Origin: Phycisphaerae bacterium
Lineage (GTDB): Bacteria > Planctomycetota > Phycisphaerae > SM23-33
Direction of reading: 5' to 3'
Assembly (NCBI GenBank): GCA_018335035.1
Contig: JAGXKT010000019.1
Span: 1 to 36,373, forward strand
Length of the DNA stretch: 36,373 bases
The translations under genes were made by a program, and so were the position numbers. Positions 18,097 to 34,806 of the stretch are shown here, piece after piece. Under the pieces are notes generated by a model that was not told the DNA's origin, did not search any database, and saw nothing but the letters and a program-made list of their open reading frames with translations. Position 1 is the stretch's first letter. Each line of letters begins with the position of its first letter.

Positions 18097-18181
18097 CCCG
18101 ATCGACCGACGCAGCGCAAAACAAAAGCCGTGCGCTCTGTGTCGAACCATCGCGGCGGGGCTTGCCCGGGCAGACGGCTCC

Positions 18182-18280
18182 GGCCAGGTTGCCCTCCGGC
18201 ACACGCTACCGGCACGCTTATGGCTGCTTCCTTCCGGACCTGACCAAGTTCACGGCGCAGCGTTGCAGAGGACCCAGCCC
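18182..18280 (-). ncRNA. ffs: Bacterial small SRP RNA (4.5S RNA)
   Basis: On the minus strand this ~99-nt segment carries the hallmark domain IV of SRP RNA: GGTCAGGTCCGGAAGGAAGC with its GGAA tetraloop and symmetric and asymmetric internal loops. The flanking CTTGGTC and CAGCCATAAG complete the hairpin. The ends pair: GGCTGGGT at the 5' end with ACCTGGCC at the 3' end (8 pairs including G-U). The upstream TCCTCTGCAACGC matches the usual 5' strand. Its protein partner Ffh is encoded at 438-1874 on the same strand, 16 kb away. The boundaries are estimated from the pairing. Confidence 0.95.
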
Positions 18281-18464
18281 TCAACGCCGTCGCTCGGGCC
18301 AGGGGGCCCGACGCGAACAGCCCTCGACAGAGCATCAGCCCCGCTATAGCGGATTGCGGGTCATCCCGACGAATCGGAACTCAGGGCACCGCTAGCGCCC
18401 CACCTAGCACGGCGACCACGCATTCTACCGCATCGCGCCCGGCCGCGACAACCGCTGTGCCGCC
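18281..18464. other. Upstream region of SRP RNA
   Basis: About 180 bases with no gene. On the minus strand it holds a possible promoter at 18422-18451 and a TATAGC hexamer at 18343-18348. It also holds a hairpin, TCGGGCC-N4-GGCCCGA, just 5' of the RNA. Any of these could define the RNA's 5' end or be part of a longer precursor. Confidence 0.4.
18422..18451 (-). promoter_or_regulatory. Candidate promoter upstream of SRP RNA
   Basis: On the minus strand, TTGTCG (18446-18451), an 18-bp spacer and TAGAAT (18422-18427) resemble a sigma70 promoter. The predicted start is at about 18415, which leaves a leader of about 135 nt before the mature SRP RNA. A precursor that is trimmed afterwards would be needed. 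Confidence 0.4.
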
Positions 18465-29166: not shown

Positions 29167-29781
29167 ATGATCCCCGCGACGACTGTGATGCTGACGATGA
29201 CCCTGGCCGGCGGCGCGCTGGCGTGGTTGCTGCTGGGCGGGCATTGCGACTCGCTGGGCGGGCCGGTCGTGGCCGACGCCCGCTACGCGCTGGAGGCCGA
29301 CGACGCGACGCCGCTGCTCAAGTGGGTCGGCCCGGAGCAGGCCGACGAGTTGGCCGACGTGTTCGGGCAGGTTCAGAAGGCTCGCCGTGGCGGTGACCCC
29401 GCCGCGACCGAGCTGGCCGAGCGATACCTGCTGGAGATGGCCGTGCGGCTGCACCGCGCCTCGGAAGGCGCGGGCTTCGACGGGCTCAAGCCCGCCGACG
29501 CCGTTCCGCCCTGGGTCCGCGCCGCCGACGAGGCCATCGAGCGCGGCGGCGCCGAGGCGTTGATCGATCAACTGACCGCGCGGGTCGCAGACGGACTGGG
29601 CCAGCGCTTCGCCGAACAGCGCGACGCGCGCCCGGCCGATGAGACCGACGTGGCCGCCGGGCGACGATGGGTCGAACGATACATCCGATTTGTTCACTGT
29701 GTCCACGAGGTCGCCGACGCCGTCGGCGGCGGCGAAAACGATAACCCGCCAAACCCCGACCTCAGAGGAGACGAGCGATGA
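29167..29781 (+). CDS. DUF6448 family protein
   Basis: A 204-residue protein with an N-terminal hydrophobic segment (about 7-24), directly followed by HCDSLGGPVVADARYALE (His26, Cys27). This HCD-x-x-x-GPV motif with a helical body (VEAGRRWVERYIRFVH-like end) is typical of DUF6448. The function is unknown. GGAG and ATG 29167 give the start; a GTG at 29164 is possible. Its stop overlaps the hcp start as ATGA, so the two proteins are probably translationally coupled. Confidence 0.8.
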   Translation: MIPATTVMLTMTLAGGALAWLLLGGHCDSLGGPVVADARYALEADDATPLLKWVGPEQADELADVFGQVQKARRGGDPAATELAERYLLEMAVRLHRASEGAGFDGLKPADAVPPWVRAADEAIERGGAEALIDQLTARVADGLGQRFAEQRDARPADETDVAAGRRWVERYIRFVHCVHEVADAVGGGENDNPPNPDLRGDER

Positions 29782-31445
29782 ACATGTTCTGTTACCAATG
29801 TGAGCAGACGGCCAAGGGAAGCGGCTGCACCGCGCACGGCGTCTGCGGCAAGGACCCCGAGACCGCGACCATGCAGGACCTGCTGGTCTATGCCGTCAAG
29901 GACATCGCCCGCTACGCCCACCGCGCCCGGCAGCTCGGTGCGGCCGACGCGGAGATCGACGCATTCGTGCCGGCGGCGCTGTTCGCGACGGTCACGAACG
30001 TCGACTTCGATCCGCAACGCATTCAGCAGCTCGTCGCGGCCGCGGGGAACCTGCGGGACAAGGCAGTCAATCTGTACGAGAACGCCTGCCGCGACGCCGG
30101 GCAGGAGCCCGAGACGCTCACGACCAAGCTGGCGTGGTGGGAGAGCACCGACGACCTTTCGGCGATGATCGACGCCGGCGAGCAGATCGCTATCACCAAG
30201 CGGATCAACGCCTACGGCGACGACGTGGCCGGCCTGCAGGAGCTGACGCTCTACGGGCTCAAAGGCGCCGCGGCCTATGCCGATCACGCCCGGTTGCTGG
30301 GCGTCGCCGATGACAATCTGTTCGGCGACTTCCACGCGATGCTCAGCGACCTGGCTGACGAGCCGACCGACGCCGAGGCGCTGACCGCCAAGGCCCTGAC
30401 GGCCGGGGCAATCAACCTCCGCGCCATGGAGCTTCTGGACAAGGCCAACACCGACGCCTACGGGCACCCGGAACCGACGCAGGCCCGCGTCACGCCGGTG
30501 GCGGGCAAGTGCATCTGCGTCTCCGGGCACGACCTGAAGGACCTCGCCGAGCTGCTGGAACAGACGGCCGGGACCGGCATCAACGTCTACACCCACGGCG
30601 AGATGCTGCCGTGCCTGGCGTATCCCGAGCTGAAGAAGTACGACCACCTCGTCGGCAACTACGGCGGCGCGTGGCAGAACCAACGCCAGGAGTTCGATGA
30701 ATTCCCCGGCGCGATCCTGATGACCACCAACTGCATCCAGAAGCCCAAGGACAGCTACAAGGATCGCATCTTCACCACGGGCCTGGTCGCCTGGCCGGGC
30801 GTGACGCACATCGACGAGAACGCCGACGGCACGAAAGACTTCTCGCCCGTGATCGAAGCCGCCCGGGCCGCGGCGGGCTTTGCCGAAGACGCCGAGGAGA
30901 AACGCATTCCCTGCGGCTTCGCCCGCAACGCCGTGATGGGCGTGGCCGAGGAGGTCGTCGAGGCCGTCAAGGGCGGCGATATCCGGCACTTCTTCCTGAT
31001 CGGCGGCTGCGACGGCGCCAAGACCGGGCGGAACTACTACACGGAATTCGCCCAGGCGGTCCCCGACGACTGCGTCATCCTGACGCTGGCGTGCGGCAAG
31101 TATCGCTTCAACAAGCTGGAGTTCGGCGAGATCGGCGGCATCCCCCGCCTGCTGGACGTGGGTCAGTGCAACGACGCATACTCGGCCGTCAAGATCGCCC
31201 AGGCCCTGGCCGACGCGTTCGACTGCGACATCAACGAGCTGCCGCTGTCGCTGATCCTGAGCTGGTACGAGCAGAAGGCCGTGGCGATTCTGCTGACCTT
31301 GCTGCACCTCGGCGTCAAGGACATGCGTCTGGGTCCGTCGCTGCCGGCCTTCGTGGCGCCGAACGTGCTGAACGTGCTCGTCGAGCAGTTCGACCTCAAA
31401 CCCGTCGCCAGCCCGAGCGAGGACCTGCAGGCCGCGCTGGCGTAA
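29778..31445 (+). CDS. hcp: Hybrid cluster protein (hydroxylamine reductase)
   Basis: Fe-S-oxygen enzyme that protects against nitrosative stress; it reduces NO and/or hydroxylamine. The 555-residue protein is class I. The N-terminal cluster motif is Cys5, Cys8, Cys17 and Cys23 (CX2CX8CX5C). All hybrid-cluster ligands seen in Desulfovibrio are present: His251 (GHD), Glu275 (HGEMLP), Cys319 (TTNCIQKP), Cys411 (GGCDGAKTGRNYY), Cys439 (LACGKYRFN), Cys464 (GQCNDAYSA) and Glu498 (WYEQKAV). It lies at the end of a transcript that begins with the FNR-type box, and starts 4 nt inside the DUF6448 gene. No Hcr reductase is nearby; the ferredoxin at 27390 is the likely donor. Confidence 0.98.
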   Translation: MNMFCYQCEQTAKGSGCTAHGVCGKDPETATMQDLLVYAVKDIARYAHRARQLGAADAEIDAFVPAALFATVTNVDFDPQRIQQLVAAAGNLRDKAVNLYENACRDAGQEPETLTTKLAWWESTDDLSAMIDAGEQIAITKRINAYGDDVAGLQELTLYGLKGAAAYADHARLLGVADDNLFGDFHAMLSDLADEPTDAEALTAKALTAGAINLRAMELLDKANTDAYGHPEPTQARVTPVAGKCICVSGHDLKDLAELLEQTAGTGINVYTHGEMLPCLAYPELKKYDHLVGNYGGAWQNQRQEFDEFPGAILMTTNCIQKPKDSYKDRIFTTGLVAWPGVTHIDENADGTKDFSPVIEAARAAAGFAEDAEEKRIPCGFARNAVMGVAEEVVEAVKGGDIRHFFLIGGCDGAKTGRNYYTEFAQAVPDDCVILTLACGKYRFNKLEFGEIGGIPRLLDVGQCNDAYSAVKIAQALADAFDCDINELPLSLILSWYEQKAVAILLTLLHLGVKDMRLGPSLPAFVAPNVLNVLVEQFDLKPVASPSEDLQAALA

Positions 31446-31906
31446 GCCGGCGGCCGCAGCGCCGTGGCACCATACGTCCCTTGCGGGCGCCGCATGGACC
31501 GGCACGCGATGGTCGGTGCGCCGCGCGGGTGGCGTACGCTGCGAGGCGCAGCCGGGCACCCACGCCCCCCACGATGCGCGGGCTCGTTGATGCGTTGACT
31601 CGTTGACGCGTTGATTCGTTGACGCGCTTGCCCAGGCGTAACCGTAGGCCAGGCACGCGTGCCCGCGAGATCATGAACCGTAGGCCGGGCCCGCACGGCC
31701 ATACGGCTCATACGAGCCCTGCGACATGTATGTCGAAGCGTCGTATGGGCCCGCGGAACGGTCATGCACGCCCACGCGTCGATCAGCCGCGCAGGCGTAG
31801 GGCTGGCAGCTTAGCCGAAGGCGCGCTGCCAGCGCGATGATGGGCGGGATTCCGCCGGCAGCAGAGCTGTCGGCCTACGGCTTATGTGGCTACCGCTTGT
31901 GCACGG
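31446..31906. other. Gene-poor stretch with repeats after hcp
   Basis: About 460 bases with no protein gene found. It contains the 8-bp tandem array at 31583-31622. It also has direct copies of CCGTAGGCC (about 31639 and 31678) and several short hairpins (for example GGCACGCGTGCC). The low coding signal and repeats suggest an insertion-prone spacer. Confidence 0.55.
31583..31622. repeat. Five-copy 8-bp tandem array NNCGTTGA
   Basis: Five adjacent units, each NNCGTTGA (ct, tg, ct, cg, tt), occupy exactly 40 bp. The same unit forms the inverted arrays at 9747-9770 and 9835-9866. Confidence 0.9.
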
Positions 31907-32125
31907 TCATTCGAACGCCTCGCGCGGCAGGCGGCTCTGGCGGATGATGGCCCAGAGCGTCCCGCGGCGAATAACCTTGTGGTCGGGCACGGGCACACTG
32001 ATCGTCGACGTCGCAGTGCGCTTCTGCATCATGACGTGGCTGCCCCGTTGGCGGACGGGTGCAAAGCCGTGGCGCTCCAGGATCGCGATGATTTACCTGC
32101 CGGATCGGACGGGAAGCTTAGCCAA
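31907..32125 (-). pseudogene. hicA: HicA toxin remnant with in-frame stop
   Basis: HicA is the small mRNA-interferase toxin of HicAB. From TTG 32125 the frame reads MAKLPVRSGR, then TAA (32093-32095), then IIAILERHGFAPVRQRGSHV and on to IIRQSRLPREAFE. All of HicA is recognisable, including the catalytic GSH region and IRRGTLWAIIRQS. Codon 11 (usually Glu or a similar residue) has become TAA. The nonsense change would give a 10-residue fragment, so the toxin is dead unless the stop is misread. It overlaps the end of hicB by 8 nt, the normal arrangement. The gene order is hicB then hicA on the minus strand. Confidence 0.8.
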
Positions 32126-32343
32126 CCTCGACCTCCACCGGACCGACTTGAACGTCGCCGCGGAGGCGTTCGGCAATTTCCCCGGCATCGGCCGATTTGA
32201 GCAGGAGTTCGACGGCCTCGCGCAGGTTGGCGCGGGCCTCGTCAGGCGTATCGCCCTGGCTGGCGACGTCCAGCTCCGGGCACAGGGCCACGTAGCCCTT
32301 CGTCTTCGCGATAGACCGCTGCGGTAAATGTGCGTCTGACCAT
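32118..32343 (-). pseudogene. hicB: HicB antitoxin with a single-base frameshift
   Basis: HicB neutralises HicA and represses its own operon. From ATG 32343 the frame reads MVRRTFTAAVYREDEG, then shifts. Removing one G from the GGG at 32296-32298 (minus strand) continues as YVALCPELDVASQGDTPDEA, then ARANLREAVELLL, and ends ...VEVEVG before TAA 32118-32120. YVALCPELxxxxSQGDT is the HicB hallmark. The restored protein has 74 residues. GGGAG precedes the ATG. The extra G may be a real mutation or a sequencing indel. Confidence 0.8.
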
Positions 32344-32473
32344 GATCCGCTCCCGTCTGCGCTCCCGTCTGGCTGTCTCCATTATCGCCGTCGACGCCGC
32401 ATCAGGCAAGGCCGTAGCCCGGCCCGACGCTGCACACAGTGTGGGCACGCGCCGGAGGCCGGGGGCGCGACGT

Positions 32474-32543
32474 GTTTCTGCGCACGGACGCGACGCGGAT
32501 GACACGTTTCTGCGCGCCGGCGGAAAGGGGTCTGCGCAGAAAC
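32474..32543. repeat. GTTTCTGCGCA inverted repeat, three copies
   Basis: GTTTCTGCGCA at 32474-32484 and its exact complement TGCGCAGAAAC at 32533-32543 form an inverted pair. A third near-copy, GTTTCTGCGC, lies in direct orientation at 32506-32515. They are about 140 bp from the parS-like cluster. Confidence 0.7.
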
Positions 32544-32678
32544 GCGCGTCGGTGCGGCGGCCCGGCGCGCCACGGCGGCAGGAGCGCATCTCGCGCCGGG
32601 GGCGTCTGTTGACGGCGTCGGCGTCGCGCTCCGCGCACGCGTTGCCGCGCAGGAATGTGGCCTCTGGCGGCCGGCGAA

Positions 32679-32694
32679 TGTTCCACGTGGAACA
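32679..32694. promoter_or_regulatory. parS site 1 (perfect)
   Basis: TGTTCCACGTGGAACA, a perfect 16-bp palindrome, matches the bacterial parS consensus (TGTTNCACGTGNAACA), the ParB-binding site for chromosome segregation. Confidence 0.9.
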
Positions 32695-32744
32695 TTTCGC
32701 CCGGCGCGCGGAATCGGCGACGCGAATCGGCGCAGGATTGTAGA

Positions 32745-32760
32745 TGTTCCCCGTGGAACA
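32745..32760. promoter_or_regulatory. parS-like site 2
   Basis: TGTTCCCCGTGGAACA differs from site 1 only in the centre (CCCGTG for CACGTG). A CCCGTG centre also occurs in Thermus-type parS. Confidence 0.8.
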
Positions 32761-32777
32761 ACGGCGGCCGGCGCGCT

Positions 32778-32793
32778 TGTTCCCCGTGGAACA
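32778..32793. promoter_or_regulatory. parS-like site 3
   Basis: TGTTCCCCGTGGAACA, identical to site 2 and 33 bp from it. The three sites lie within 115 bp. No parA or parB is in the window. Confidence 0.8.
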
Positions 32794-32931
32794 CTTCGCG
32801 CGGCCGGGGCGCCTCGGCGCGGCGCTCGGCGTTTGGCGGCGCGCCTATCGCGCGCGGCGTCGTGTGCGGAGTGGACGCCGGCGGCGCGGGCGGTCATAAT
32901 GGCGGCGCCGCACAGGCGGAAAGGACACGGC

Positions 32932-34806
32932 ATGCGAAGTAATCGAGTCAAGAAGGGACTTCAGCGCGGTCCGCACCGCAGCTTGATGAAGGCGACGGGC
33001 CTGGACGACGCGGCGATCAAGCGGCCGATGATCGGCATCGCGTGCAGCTACACGGACGCCGTGCCGGGACACGTGCACCTCGACGCGGTGGGCGAGTACG
33101 TCAAGGCGAAGGTTCGCGCGGCCGGCGGCACGCCGATTCTGTTCAACACGATCGCGATCTGCGACGGGATCGCGATGGGCCACACCGGCATGAAATACTC
33201 GCTGGTGTCGCGCGAGCTGATTGCCGATTGCGTGGAGTCGATGTTCGAGGCGCACCAGTTCGACGCGATGCTGTGCATTCCGAACTGCGACAAGATCACG
33301 CCGGGCATGCTGATGGCGGCGCTGCGGGTCAACGTGCCGACGGTCTTCGTCTCGGGCGGGCCGATGGAGGCCGGGCGCGTCGCCGGCTGCGACGTGGATC
33401 TGATCGACCAATTCTACGCCGTCGCACAGAAGAAGACCGGCCGCATGACCAACAAGCAGGTCGCCGAGTACGAGGCCAACACGTGCCCGACGTGCGGCTC
33501 GTGCAGCGGCATGTTCACGGCCAACAGCATGAACTGCCTGTGCGAGGCGATCGGCATTGCGCCGCCGGGCAACGGCACGACGCTGGCGACGAGCCCCGCG
33601 CGGATGGCGCTGTTCGACACGGCGGCCGAGCGGATCGTCAAAATGGCGCGCGCCTGGACCCGCGGTGGCTGCAAGAAAAGCTACCCCCTGCTGCCGCGGC
33701 GGATCATGACCAAGCGCGCGTTCGCCAACGCCTTCACGCTGGACATGGCGATGGGCGGCTCGACGAACACCGTGCTGCACCTGCTGGCGATCGCCAACGA
33801 GGCCGGCGTCAACTTCACGCTGGACGACATCGAACGCATCTCGAAGCGCACGCCGAACATCTGCCGCGTCGCGCCGTCGGCCACGCCCGAAGGCCGCATC
33901 TACCACGTCCAGGACGTCCACCGCGCCGGCGGCATCCACACGATCCTCTGGCAACTGCGCGCCGGCAAAAAGACGCTCGTCCGCGACGACGCCATGACCG
34001 TCACCGGCGAGACGATGGGCCGCAACCTCGACAAGTGGTCGCTGCGCAGCAGCAAGCTCTGTGCGGCCGGCAGGCACCTCTACCGCGACGGCTGGCGCGC
34101 GACCGGGCGATCCGTCGAGCAGGTCCGCGCGATGTATCGCGGGCAGCGACCCGCGCGCCTGACGACCAAAAACGCCGATCGCAACTTCGCGCCCGAGGAC
34201 GTCATCCGCCCGATGGAGCTGGCCTACACGAAGAAGGGCGGGCTGGTCGTGCTGCGCGGCAACATCGCGCGGAACGGTTCGGTCGTCAAGCTCGCCGGCG
34301 TCGATCCGGCGATGTACGTCCACAGCGGGCCTGCGCGGATCTACGAAAGCCAGGACGACGCCTGCGAGGGCATCCTCGGCGGACAGGTCGCCCCCGGCGA
34401 CGTGGTCGTCATCCGAAACGAGGGCCCCAAGGGCGGGCCCGGCATGCAGGAGATGCTCGCCCCGACCAGCTACATCCGCGGCATGGGCCTCGGTGAGAAG
34501 TGCGCGCTGATCACCGACGGGCGCTTCAGCGGCGGCACGGCCGGGGCGTCCATCGGGCACGTCTCGCCGGAGGCGGCCGCCGGCGGCGAAATCGGCCTGC
34601 TGCGCAACGGCGACATCATCGACATCGACATCCCCGGCGGCACGCTCAACGCGCGCCTCAGCGCGGCCGAGTTCAAACGCCGCCGCAAGAAGCGGCAGCC
34701 GCGACCCGCGCCGATCCGCCACGGCGCGCTCGGCCGCTACGCCGCACACGCCACCAGCGCCGATACCGGCGCCGTGCTCGACTGGCCCGGCAAACCCAAA
34801 CCGTAA
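32932..34806 (+). CDS. ilvD: Dihydroxy-acid dehydratase
   Basis: Fe-S enzyme of valine, leucine and isoleucine synthesis; it dehydrates 2,3-dihydroxy-3-methyl acids. The 624-residue protein is of the longer, E. coli-like type. It has VPGHVHLD (44-51), IPNCDKITPGM with Cys119 and the metal-binding Lys121, CPTCGSCSGMF with Cys185/188/191, and the C-terminal GRFSGGTAGASIGHVSPEA. It ends with a basic, Pro-rich tail. ATG 32932 is preceded by AAAGGA; an upstream in-frame ATG at 32899 only adds a basic segment. It lies right after the parS-like cluster. No other ilv gene is near. Confidence 0.97.
   Translation: MRSNRVKKGLQRGPHRSLMKATGLDDAAIKRPMIGIACSYTDAVPGHVHLDAVGEYVKAKVRAAGGTPILFNTIAICDGIAMGHTGMKYSLVSRELIADCVESMFEAHQFDAMLCIPNCDKITPGMLMAALRVNVPTVFVSGGPMEAGRVAGCDVDLIDQFYAVAQKKTGRMTNKQVAEYEANTCPTCGSCSGMFTANSMNCLCEAIGIAPPGNGTTLATSPARMALFDTAAERIVKMARAWTRGGCKKSYPLLPRRIMTKRAFANAFTLDMAMGGSTNTVLHLLAIANEAGVNFTLDDIERISKRTPNICRVAPSATPEGRIYHVQDVHRAGGIHTILWQLRAGKKTLVRDDAMTVTGETMGRNLDKWSLRSSKLCAAGRHLYRDGWRATGRSVEQVRAMYRGQRPARLTTKNADRNFAPEDVIRPMELAYTKKGGLVVLRGNIARNGSVVKLAGVDPAMYVHSGPARIYESQDDACEGILGGQVAPGDVVVIRNEGPKGGPGMQEMLAPTSYIRGMGLGEKCALITDGRFSGGTAGASIGHVSPEAAAGGEIGLLRNGDIIDIDIPGGTLNARLSAAEFKRRRKKRQPRPAPIRHGALGRYAAHATSADTGAVLDWPGKPKP

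Follow-up and report, generated by a model that had tools for sequence, protein, structure and literature searches.

parS-type sites upstream of ilvD in a Phycisphaerae genome and their dispersed counterparts with a companion palindrome

The parS cluster and its counterparts in the genome

The stretch of DNA analysed here, referred to as the window, comprises 36,373 nucleotides of contig JAGXKT010000019.1 from a Phycisphaerae bacterium (assembly GCA_018335035.1) and contains a cluster of three parS-like sites in an intergenic gap upstream of ilvD. A sequence-only reading had described a perfect parS palindrome and two variants with one altered base within 115 bp, and the motif search of the window gave the same three:

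32679..32694, no strand assigned: parS site 1, TGTTCCACGTGGAACA, a perfect 16-bp palindrome (motif search, and exact 16-mer beside parB in relatives)
32745..32760, plus strand: parS variant site 2, TGTTCCCCGTGGAACA, with A to C in one half-site and the other unaltered (motif search)
32778..32793, plus strand: parS variant site 3, TGTTCCCCGTGGAACA, same variant and orientation as site 2 (motif search)

Site 1 is identical to the 16-bp palindrome TGTTYCACGTGRAACA, which we take to be the chromosomal parS consensus, and sites 2 and 3 have one mismatch each. With up to three mismatches allowed, the whole window has six strand-wise parS matches, all at these sites, a number reached in none of 100 dinucleotide shuffles (mean 0.37, maximum 3). 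The cluster folds stably as a single strand (z -3.3), which is expected from palindromes and is not used as evidence. The gap, from 31446 up to the ilvD start (32932 or 32986), is gene-free as the sequence-only reading had it, according to a home-made gene caller based on codon usage. That the window lacks parA, parB and dnaA also held, and family searches of the genome put all of them on other contigs.

The window lies in contig C7 of the genome, labelled G000, a 2.74 Mb assembly of 82 contigs (96.84% complete) too fragmented for the contigs to be ordered. Twelve exact and three one-mismatch sites (one at C17:2884 and the two window variants) give a total of 15, distributed over nine loci on nine contigs (C1, C4, C7, C9, C17, C18, C38, C44 and C82). 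About 0.0002 exact sites are expected from base composition by arithmetic, against the 12 seen, and a reversed control pattern has no match. All nine loci are intergenic by the gene caller, while 81% of the 164 kb of DNA fetched is coding. By its sequence the cluster upstream of ilvD is a real parS, one of nine dispersed intergenic loci in this genome. The copies proved few when counted genome-wide, not the many scattered ones that would speak against a centromere, and the ParB homologue on which the idea depends was found.

This homologue is the only TIGR00180 protein of the genome (C17:3481-4029, 174 bits) and has the domains ParB_N, HTH_ParB and ParB_C. Four parS sites lie upstream of parB, between asnB and parB. 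ParA-type ATPases (AAA_31) are encoded on contigs other than that of parB, the best on C2 (174.6 bits) with a Walker-A motif, KGGVGKT, seen by eye. The identification of the 16-mer as parS fits this ParB and the candidate ParA-type ATPase, and is borne out by the relatives of the family. Sites that are exact or differ by a single base are present in 28 of 34 relatives (29/35 with G000 included) and six have none. In 26 of the 28 site-bearing relatives parB was matched by tblastn in the 3-kb parS locus, beside the exact 16-mer in 24 and a one-mismatch form in two; it was not matched in loci L018 and L030, of which L030 is truncated. The gene order asnB-parS-parB is also present in relative G010. 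Because parB adjoins it in 26 of the 28 relatives that have it, the 16-mer is, by gene neighbourhood, the parS of the family. The site-bearing relatives have one to three sites each, on a single contig in 26/28, and by this comparison the extra parS loci are peculiar to the G000 lineage.

In the numbering of PMC7383237, the ParB of G000 retains the parS-specificity residues R173 and G201; residue 170 is A, and G in 24 of 26 relatives. We infer that sites 2 and 3 bind ParB more weakly, because the A-to-C change falls on position 6, which by the rule in PMC7383237 is read via residue 201. In P. aeruginosa, parS with two mismatches is unbound in vivo (PMC5098823).

Class-wide, in a sample of 397 genomes (G000 included) of a larger group and with only the exact variant counted, parS is present in 143. 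Five or more exact copies were found in ten genomes: 82 (G052), 12 (G000), 11, 8, 7, 7, 6, 6, 5 and 5. High numbers given in a review are 20-23 (PMC7333895). G052 (loci L047-L061 and L103), a very fragmented assembly of 4.7 Mb and 720 contigs, has 82 exact sites, or 107 with one mismatch. Seven sites lie near its parB, and elsewhere a number of them are in interspersed intergenic repeat units with a length of about 100 bp; the first clusters on four of the eight contigs inspected have 56-65 of 70 upstream bases in common. G052 seems to contain a dispersed repeat in which parS is included by chance. At several loci of another genome, G207 (L066, L071, L076, L158), dispersed parS sites have an AT-rich upstream stretch (TTTGTTTGGTTTTAGTTAGCAA-like) that is common to them in part.

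The companion palindrome

A second palindrome, absent from the account of the sequence-only reading, accompanies the parS sites of G000. Its extended consensus, CGCGnTTnTGCGCAnAAnCGCG, is 22-26 bp long and centred on TGCGCA. Each parS locus has one to three copies, and at every locus a parS and a TGCGCA have their starts 11-205 bp apart. In the 210-bp flanks TGCGCA is the most enriched 6-mer, with 20 occurrences against 2.89 expected, at 9/9 loci. The window has three boxes, none with a strand assigned:

32471..32492: TGCGCA box, far position, core 32479 (motif match)
32525..32546: TGCGCA box, mid position, core 32533 (motif match), 54 bp from the far box
32638..32659: degenerate TGCGCA box with core 32646 in the near position, scoring 16.1 with the weight matrix

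The degenerate near box, which is outside the 20 exact cores, is separated from the mid box by 113 bp, a spacing that other loci repeat. The inter-box distances recur as 53, 53, 54 and 55 bp and as 112, 113, 114 and 115 bp; the 14 spacing coincidences observed compare with a null mean of 2.8 and were matched in one of 20000 randomisations. The orientation of the elements relative to the neighbouring genes is mixed. The two arms of the box do not co-vary (91 of 180 paired cells, null 91.3). By this measure the halves vary independently, which fits a double-stranded protein site and not an RNA hairpin. An RNA element was rejected, as the arms lack co-variation and the only matches at Rfam gathering thresholds in the nine sources were two tRNAs near the C4 element, the signal recognition particle (SRP) RNA of the window and a borderline PYLIS.

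No half-parS was found within 1 kb of the solo boxes on C9, C13, C20 and C33. In the 28 parS loci of the relatives one TGCGCA lies near parS, 12 bp upstream (start to start) in L015, and no other within 260 bp. The composite of parS and box matched 23 stretches in the GTDB r220 collection, one in each of 23 records, which are read as background; G000 itself is possibly outside the collection search. There were none in viral contigs, and in the fetched loci of other multi-site genomes no common box was seen by eye.

Interpretation of the dispersed loci

On balance we lean, by a modest degree, towards reading the cluster as one of nine dispersed intergenic composite elements at which ParB loads and which include a site for a partner. 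Each element would consist of one or more parS and one to three TGCGCA palindromes. ParB from the par locus on C17 would load at parS, close as a CTP-dependent clamp and slide, so that ParB domains distant from the par locus would form, one at each element. A putative second dimeric DNA-binding protein on the TGCGCA boxes could act with ParB as a barrier, loader or bridge. Binding, loading and sliding at the elements are assumed from known ParB biology, and the partner and its role are a guess. The full design, a two-protein dispersed centromere with nine anchor points along the chromosome, each made up of ParB at parS and, at a fixed distance, another protein that binds the second palindrome, is a tentative and rather doubtful proposal. 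A limited literature search found no description of such a design; equally limited searches gave nothing on topic for planctomycete ParB/parS and nothing for parS with an interspersed repeat.

Several observations weigh against composite elements with a partner site. The composite is carried by one species only, which gives no view of its conservation over time. Closer in, in the 60-bp flanks, TGCGCA (10 against 1.13 expected, 8/9 loci) comes second after CAGGAA, a 6-mer present in two loci. The recurrence of the box spacing was noticed before its test, and the distance from the near box to parS is variable, 33-51 bp in element orientation. With at most two mismatches the box consensus has 32 distinct positions genome-wide, 13 of them at eight of the nine loci (with strands counted apart, 19 of 41 hits are at parS loci and the remaining 22 compare with 13 for the reversed control), an enrichment that is partly circular as the 22-bp consensus was derived from the same loci. 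Sites 2 and 3 of the window are altered parS copies, and contig C38 starts 54 bp before its parS, leaving the upstream side unseen. Masking of parS alone leaves 11 of 36 locus pairs within the cut-off for flank similarity (at most 3 of 100 shuffles). Without masking, C7-C82 align over 194 bp and C1-C38 over 127 bp, and given these alignments duplication of whole elements is possible.

The strongest alternative is an ordinary though enlarged array of parS in the vicinity of the origin, of the kind found in Bacillus, Listeria or Streptomyces, with all nine contigs as neighbours of the origin and the boxes incidental or regulatory. The site-bearing contigs total about 507 kb (C82 with 140,892 bp, C4 with 136,980 and C44 with 85,263 among them). 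With the two largest outer arms removed and all nine loci assumed to be on one chromosome, the minimum span is about 277 kb or 10% of the genome, which could fit such an array. A homologue of the dnaA on C63 lies about 47 kb from parB in relative G019, and dnaN about 4.5 kb from parB in G007; because of these two cases the par locus is probably origin-proximal in the family. In G000 itself, the dnaA genes are on C63 and C59 and dnaN is on C8, none of them site-bearing contigs, and placing the origin by gene neighbourhood gave no answer with dnaA, dnaN and parB on separate contigs. Against an array stand the relatives, which have 0-3 sites, and the boxes and their spacing, which it leaves unexplained. 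The 294-kb parB contig of G019 has homologues (at least 40% identity and half length) of parB, the C63 dnaA, two open reading frames (ORFs) of C38 and two of C7, but the genes directly next to the dispersed elements (ilvD, thrS, argB-like, ybeY and others) have no match on it. The gene asnB, which adjoins parB in G000, has none either, and synteny between genera is therefore weak evidence. An origin-proximal array thus weighed is a serious possibility, if somewhat short of an even chance.

The suggestion that the replication origin is close to the cluster itself was not supported. The cluster is one of nine loci, with parB, dnaA and dnaN on other contigs, and ilvD and parS are on separate contigs in 28/28 site-bearing relatives, weak evidence with contigs this short. 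The other suggestion, an off-origin centromere, is unproven for contigs that cannot be put in order. No full parS-like palindrome was found upstream of ilvD in the loci of 29 relatives, several of which end at contig ends. The two DnaA genes of G000 (C63, L045/L146; C59, L046/L145) are divergent and both over the family cut-off; a single dnaN was found. In published work on the position of parS, Caulobacter tolerates an additional parS cluster in restricted zones only, parS of Pseudomonas has to lie no further than about 650 kb from oriC to function, and in V. cholerae moving parS by 650 kb had no effect (PMC5815017/PMC5098823).

A neutral or selfish intergenic repeat, similar to repetitive extragenic palindromes (REP) or miniature inverted-repeat transposable elements (MITE), that carries parS by chance appears improbable for G000. 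It is favoured by G052, with its 82 exact copies and similar upstream bases on four of eight contigs, and in G000 by the aligning flanks of C1-C38 and C7-C82 and by a Y1-transposase-like frame on C18. With both parS and boxes masked, however, 32 of the 36 locus pairs have no flank similarity at the cut-off and four are weakly similar (C1-C38, C4-C9, C4-C18 and C9-C82), while 8 of 401 control intergenic pairs score at least 40, above any masked element pair listed (38). Among the spacers, two of ten near-mid pairs exceed the shuffles, C7-C82 (0/200 shuffles) and weakly C7-C44 (2/200), and none of three mid-far pairs. Identity is thus at chance level in most spacers but complete among 12 copies of parS, which suggests selection on the parS sites.

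Equally unlikely is a role as operators through which ParB, alone or with a box-binding protein, regulates the adjoining genes: at all nine loci a gene starts 21-442 bp downstream of a parS, the intergenic parS3 and parS4 of P. aeruginosa repress adjacent genes (PMC7022226) and a promoter-like match follows site 3, but the elements have mixed orientation to the genes, which form no obvious regulon (ilvD, thrS, an HPr-like gene, two GH2 hydrolases, glycosyltransferases).

Known systems and neighbouring genes

The sites are real parS; what was not expected is their arrangement as dispersed composites. As in chromosomal ParABS systems, G000 has parB, with a ParA-type ATPase as candidate partner, parS lies beside parB in relatives, and the sequence is identical to parS2/parS3 of P. 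aeruginosa (PMC5098823). Unlike them, it has nine intergenic loci, all of which also hold the recurrently spaced second palindrome, compared with one to three sites, on one contig in 26/28, in the relatives. Scattered sites for a ParB-family protein recall Noc-binding sites (NBS), and sites 2 and 3 have the C at position 6 that separates NBS from parS (PMC7383237). However, 12 of the 15 sites are exact parS and the base at position 1 is of the parS type; in place of the A at 1 and C at 6 of both halves, only position 6 is changed, in one half of sites 2 and 3. The protein also differs from Noc, which has Q173, R201 and Lys at 179/184; that of G000 has R173, G201 and Y/D, without Lys or Arg at 179/184, and scores 184.9 bits with the Noc model, under the cut-off of 315. 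Short palindromes repeated between genes resemble REP or bacterial interspersed mosaic elements (BIME), but little flank seems to be copied in G000 and the box arms lack hairpin-like co-variation; the parS-bearing repeats of G052 fit this type better.

A review asks why the number of parS varies and why the sites cluster (PMC7333895). A lineage with nine composite elements, whose relatives have a single par locus, is a natural case for studying multiplication of the centromere and its limits, and so is the class member with 82 exact copies. A possible partner of ParB is suggested by the TGCGCA box, a binding site through which it can be searched for.

Around the cluster, the window contains the following features:

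29778-31445: Prismane-family gene (PF03063), on the upstream side of the cluster (codon-usage gene caller, Pfam)
32872..32900, plus strand: downstream of the parS cluster, a candidate ilvD promoter of the sigma-70 type, TGGACG-17-CATAAT (consensus match only)
32932..34806, plus strand: ilvD, dihydroxy-acid dehydratase (PF00920, PF24877), with start uncertain between 32932 (ATG) and 32986 (gene caller, Pfam)

The label of a dead HicAB, given by the sequence-only reading to a remnant at 31905-32345 on the minus strand, is unproven: the hicB-like frame has no Pfam match at E<=0.001 and the translated frame of the second piece contains a stop. On C18 a frame with a Y1-type (IS200-like) transposase domain (L039 290-1576) lies about 3.3 kb from the parS element. 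The borderline Rfam match on C9 (L037 13885-13984) is to PYLIS_3, a pyrrolysine insertion element, with 38.7 bits at a threshold of 38. A bacterial large SRP RNA (RF01854, 138 bits) is encoded at 18128-18412 of the window on the minus strand.
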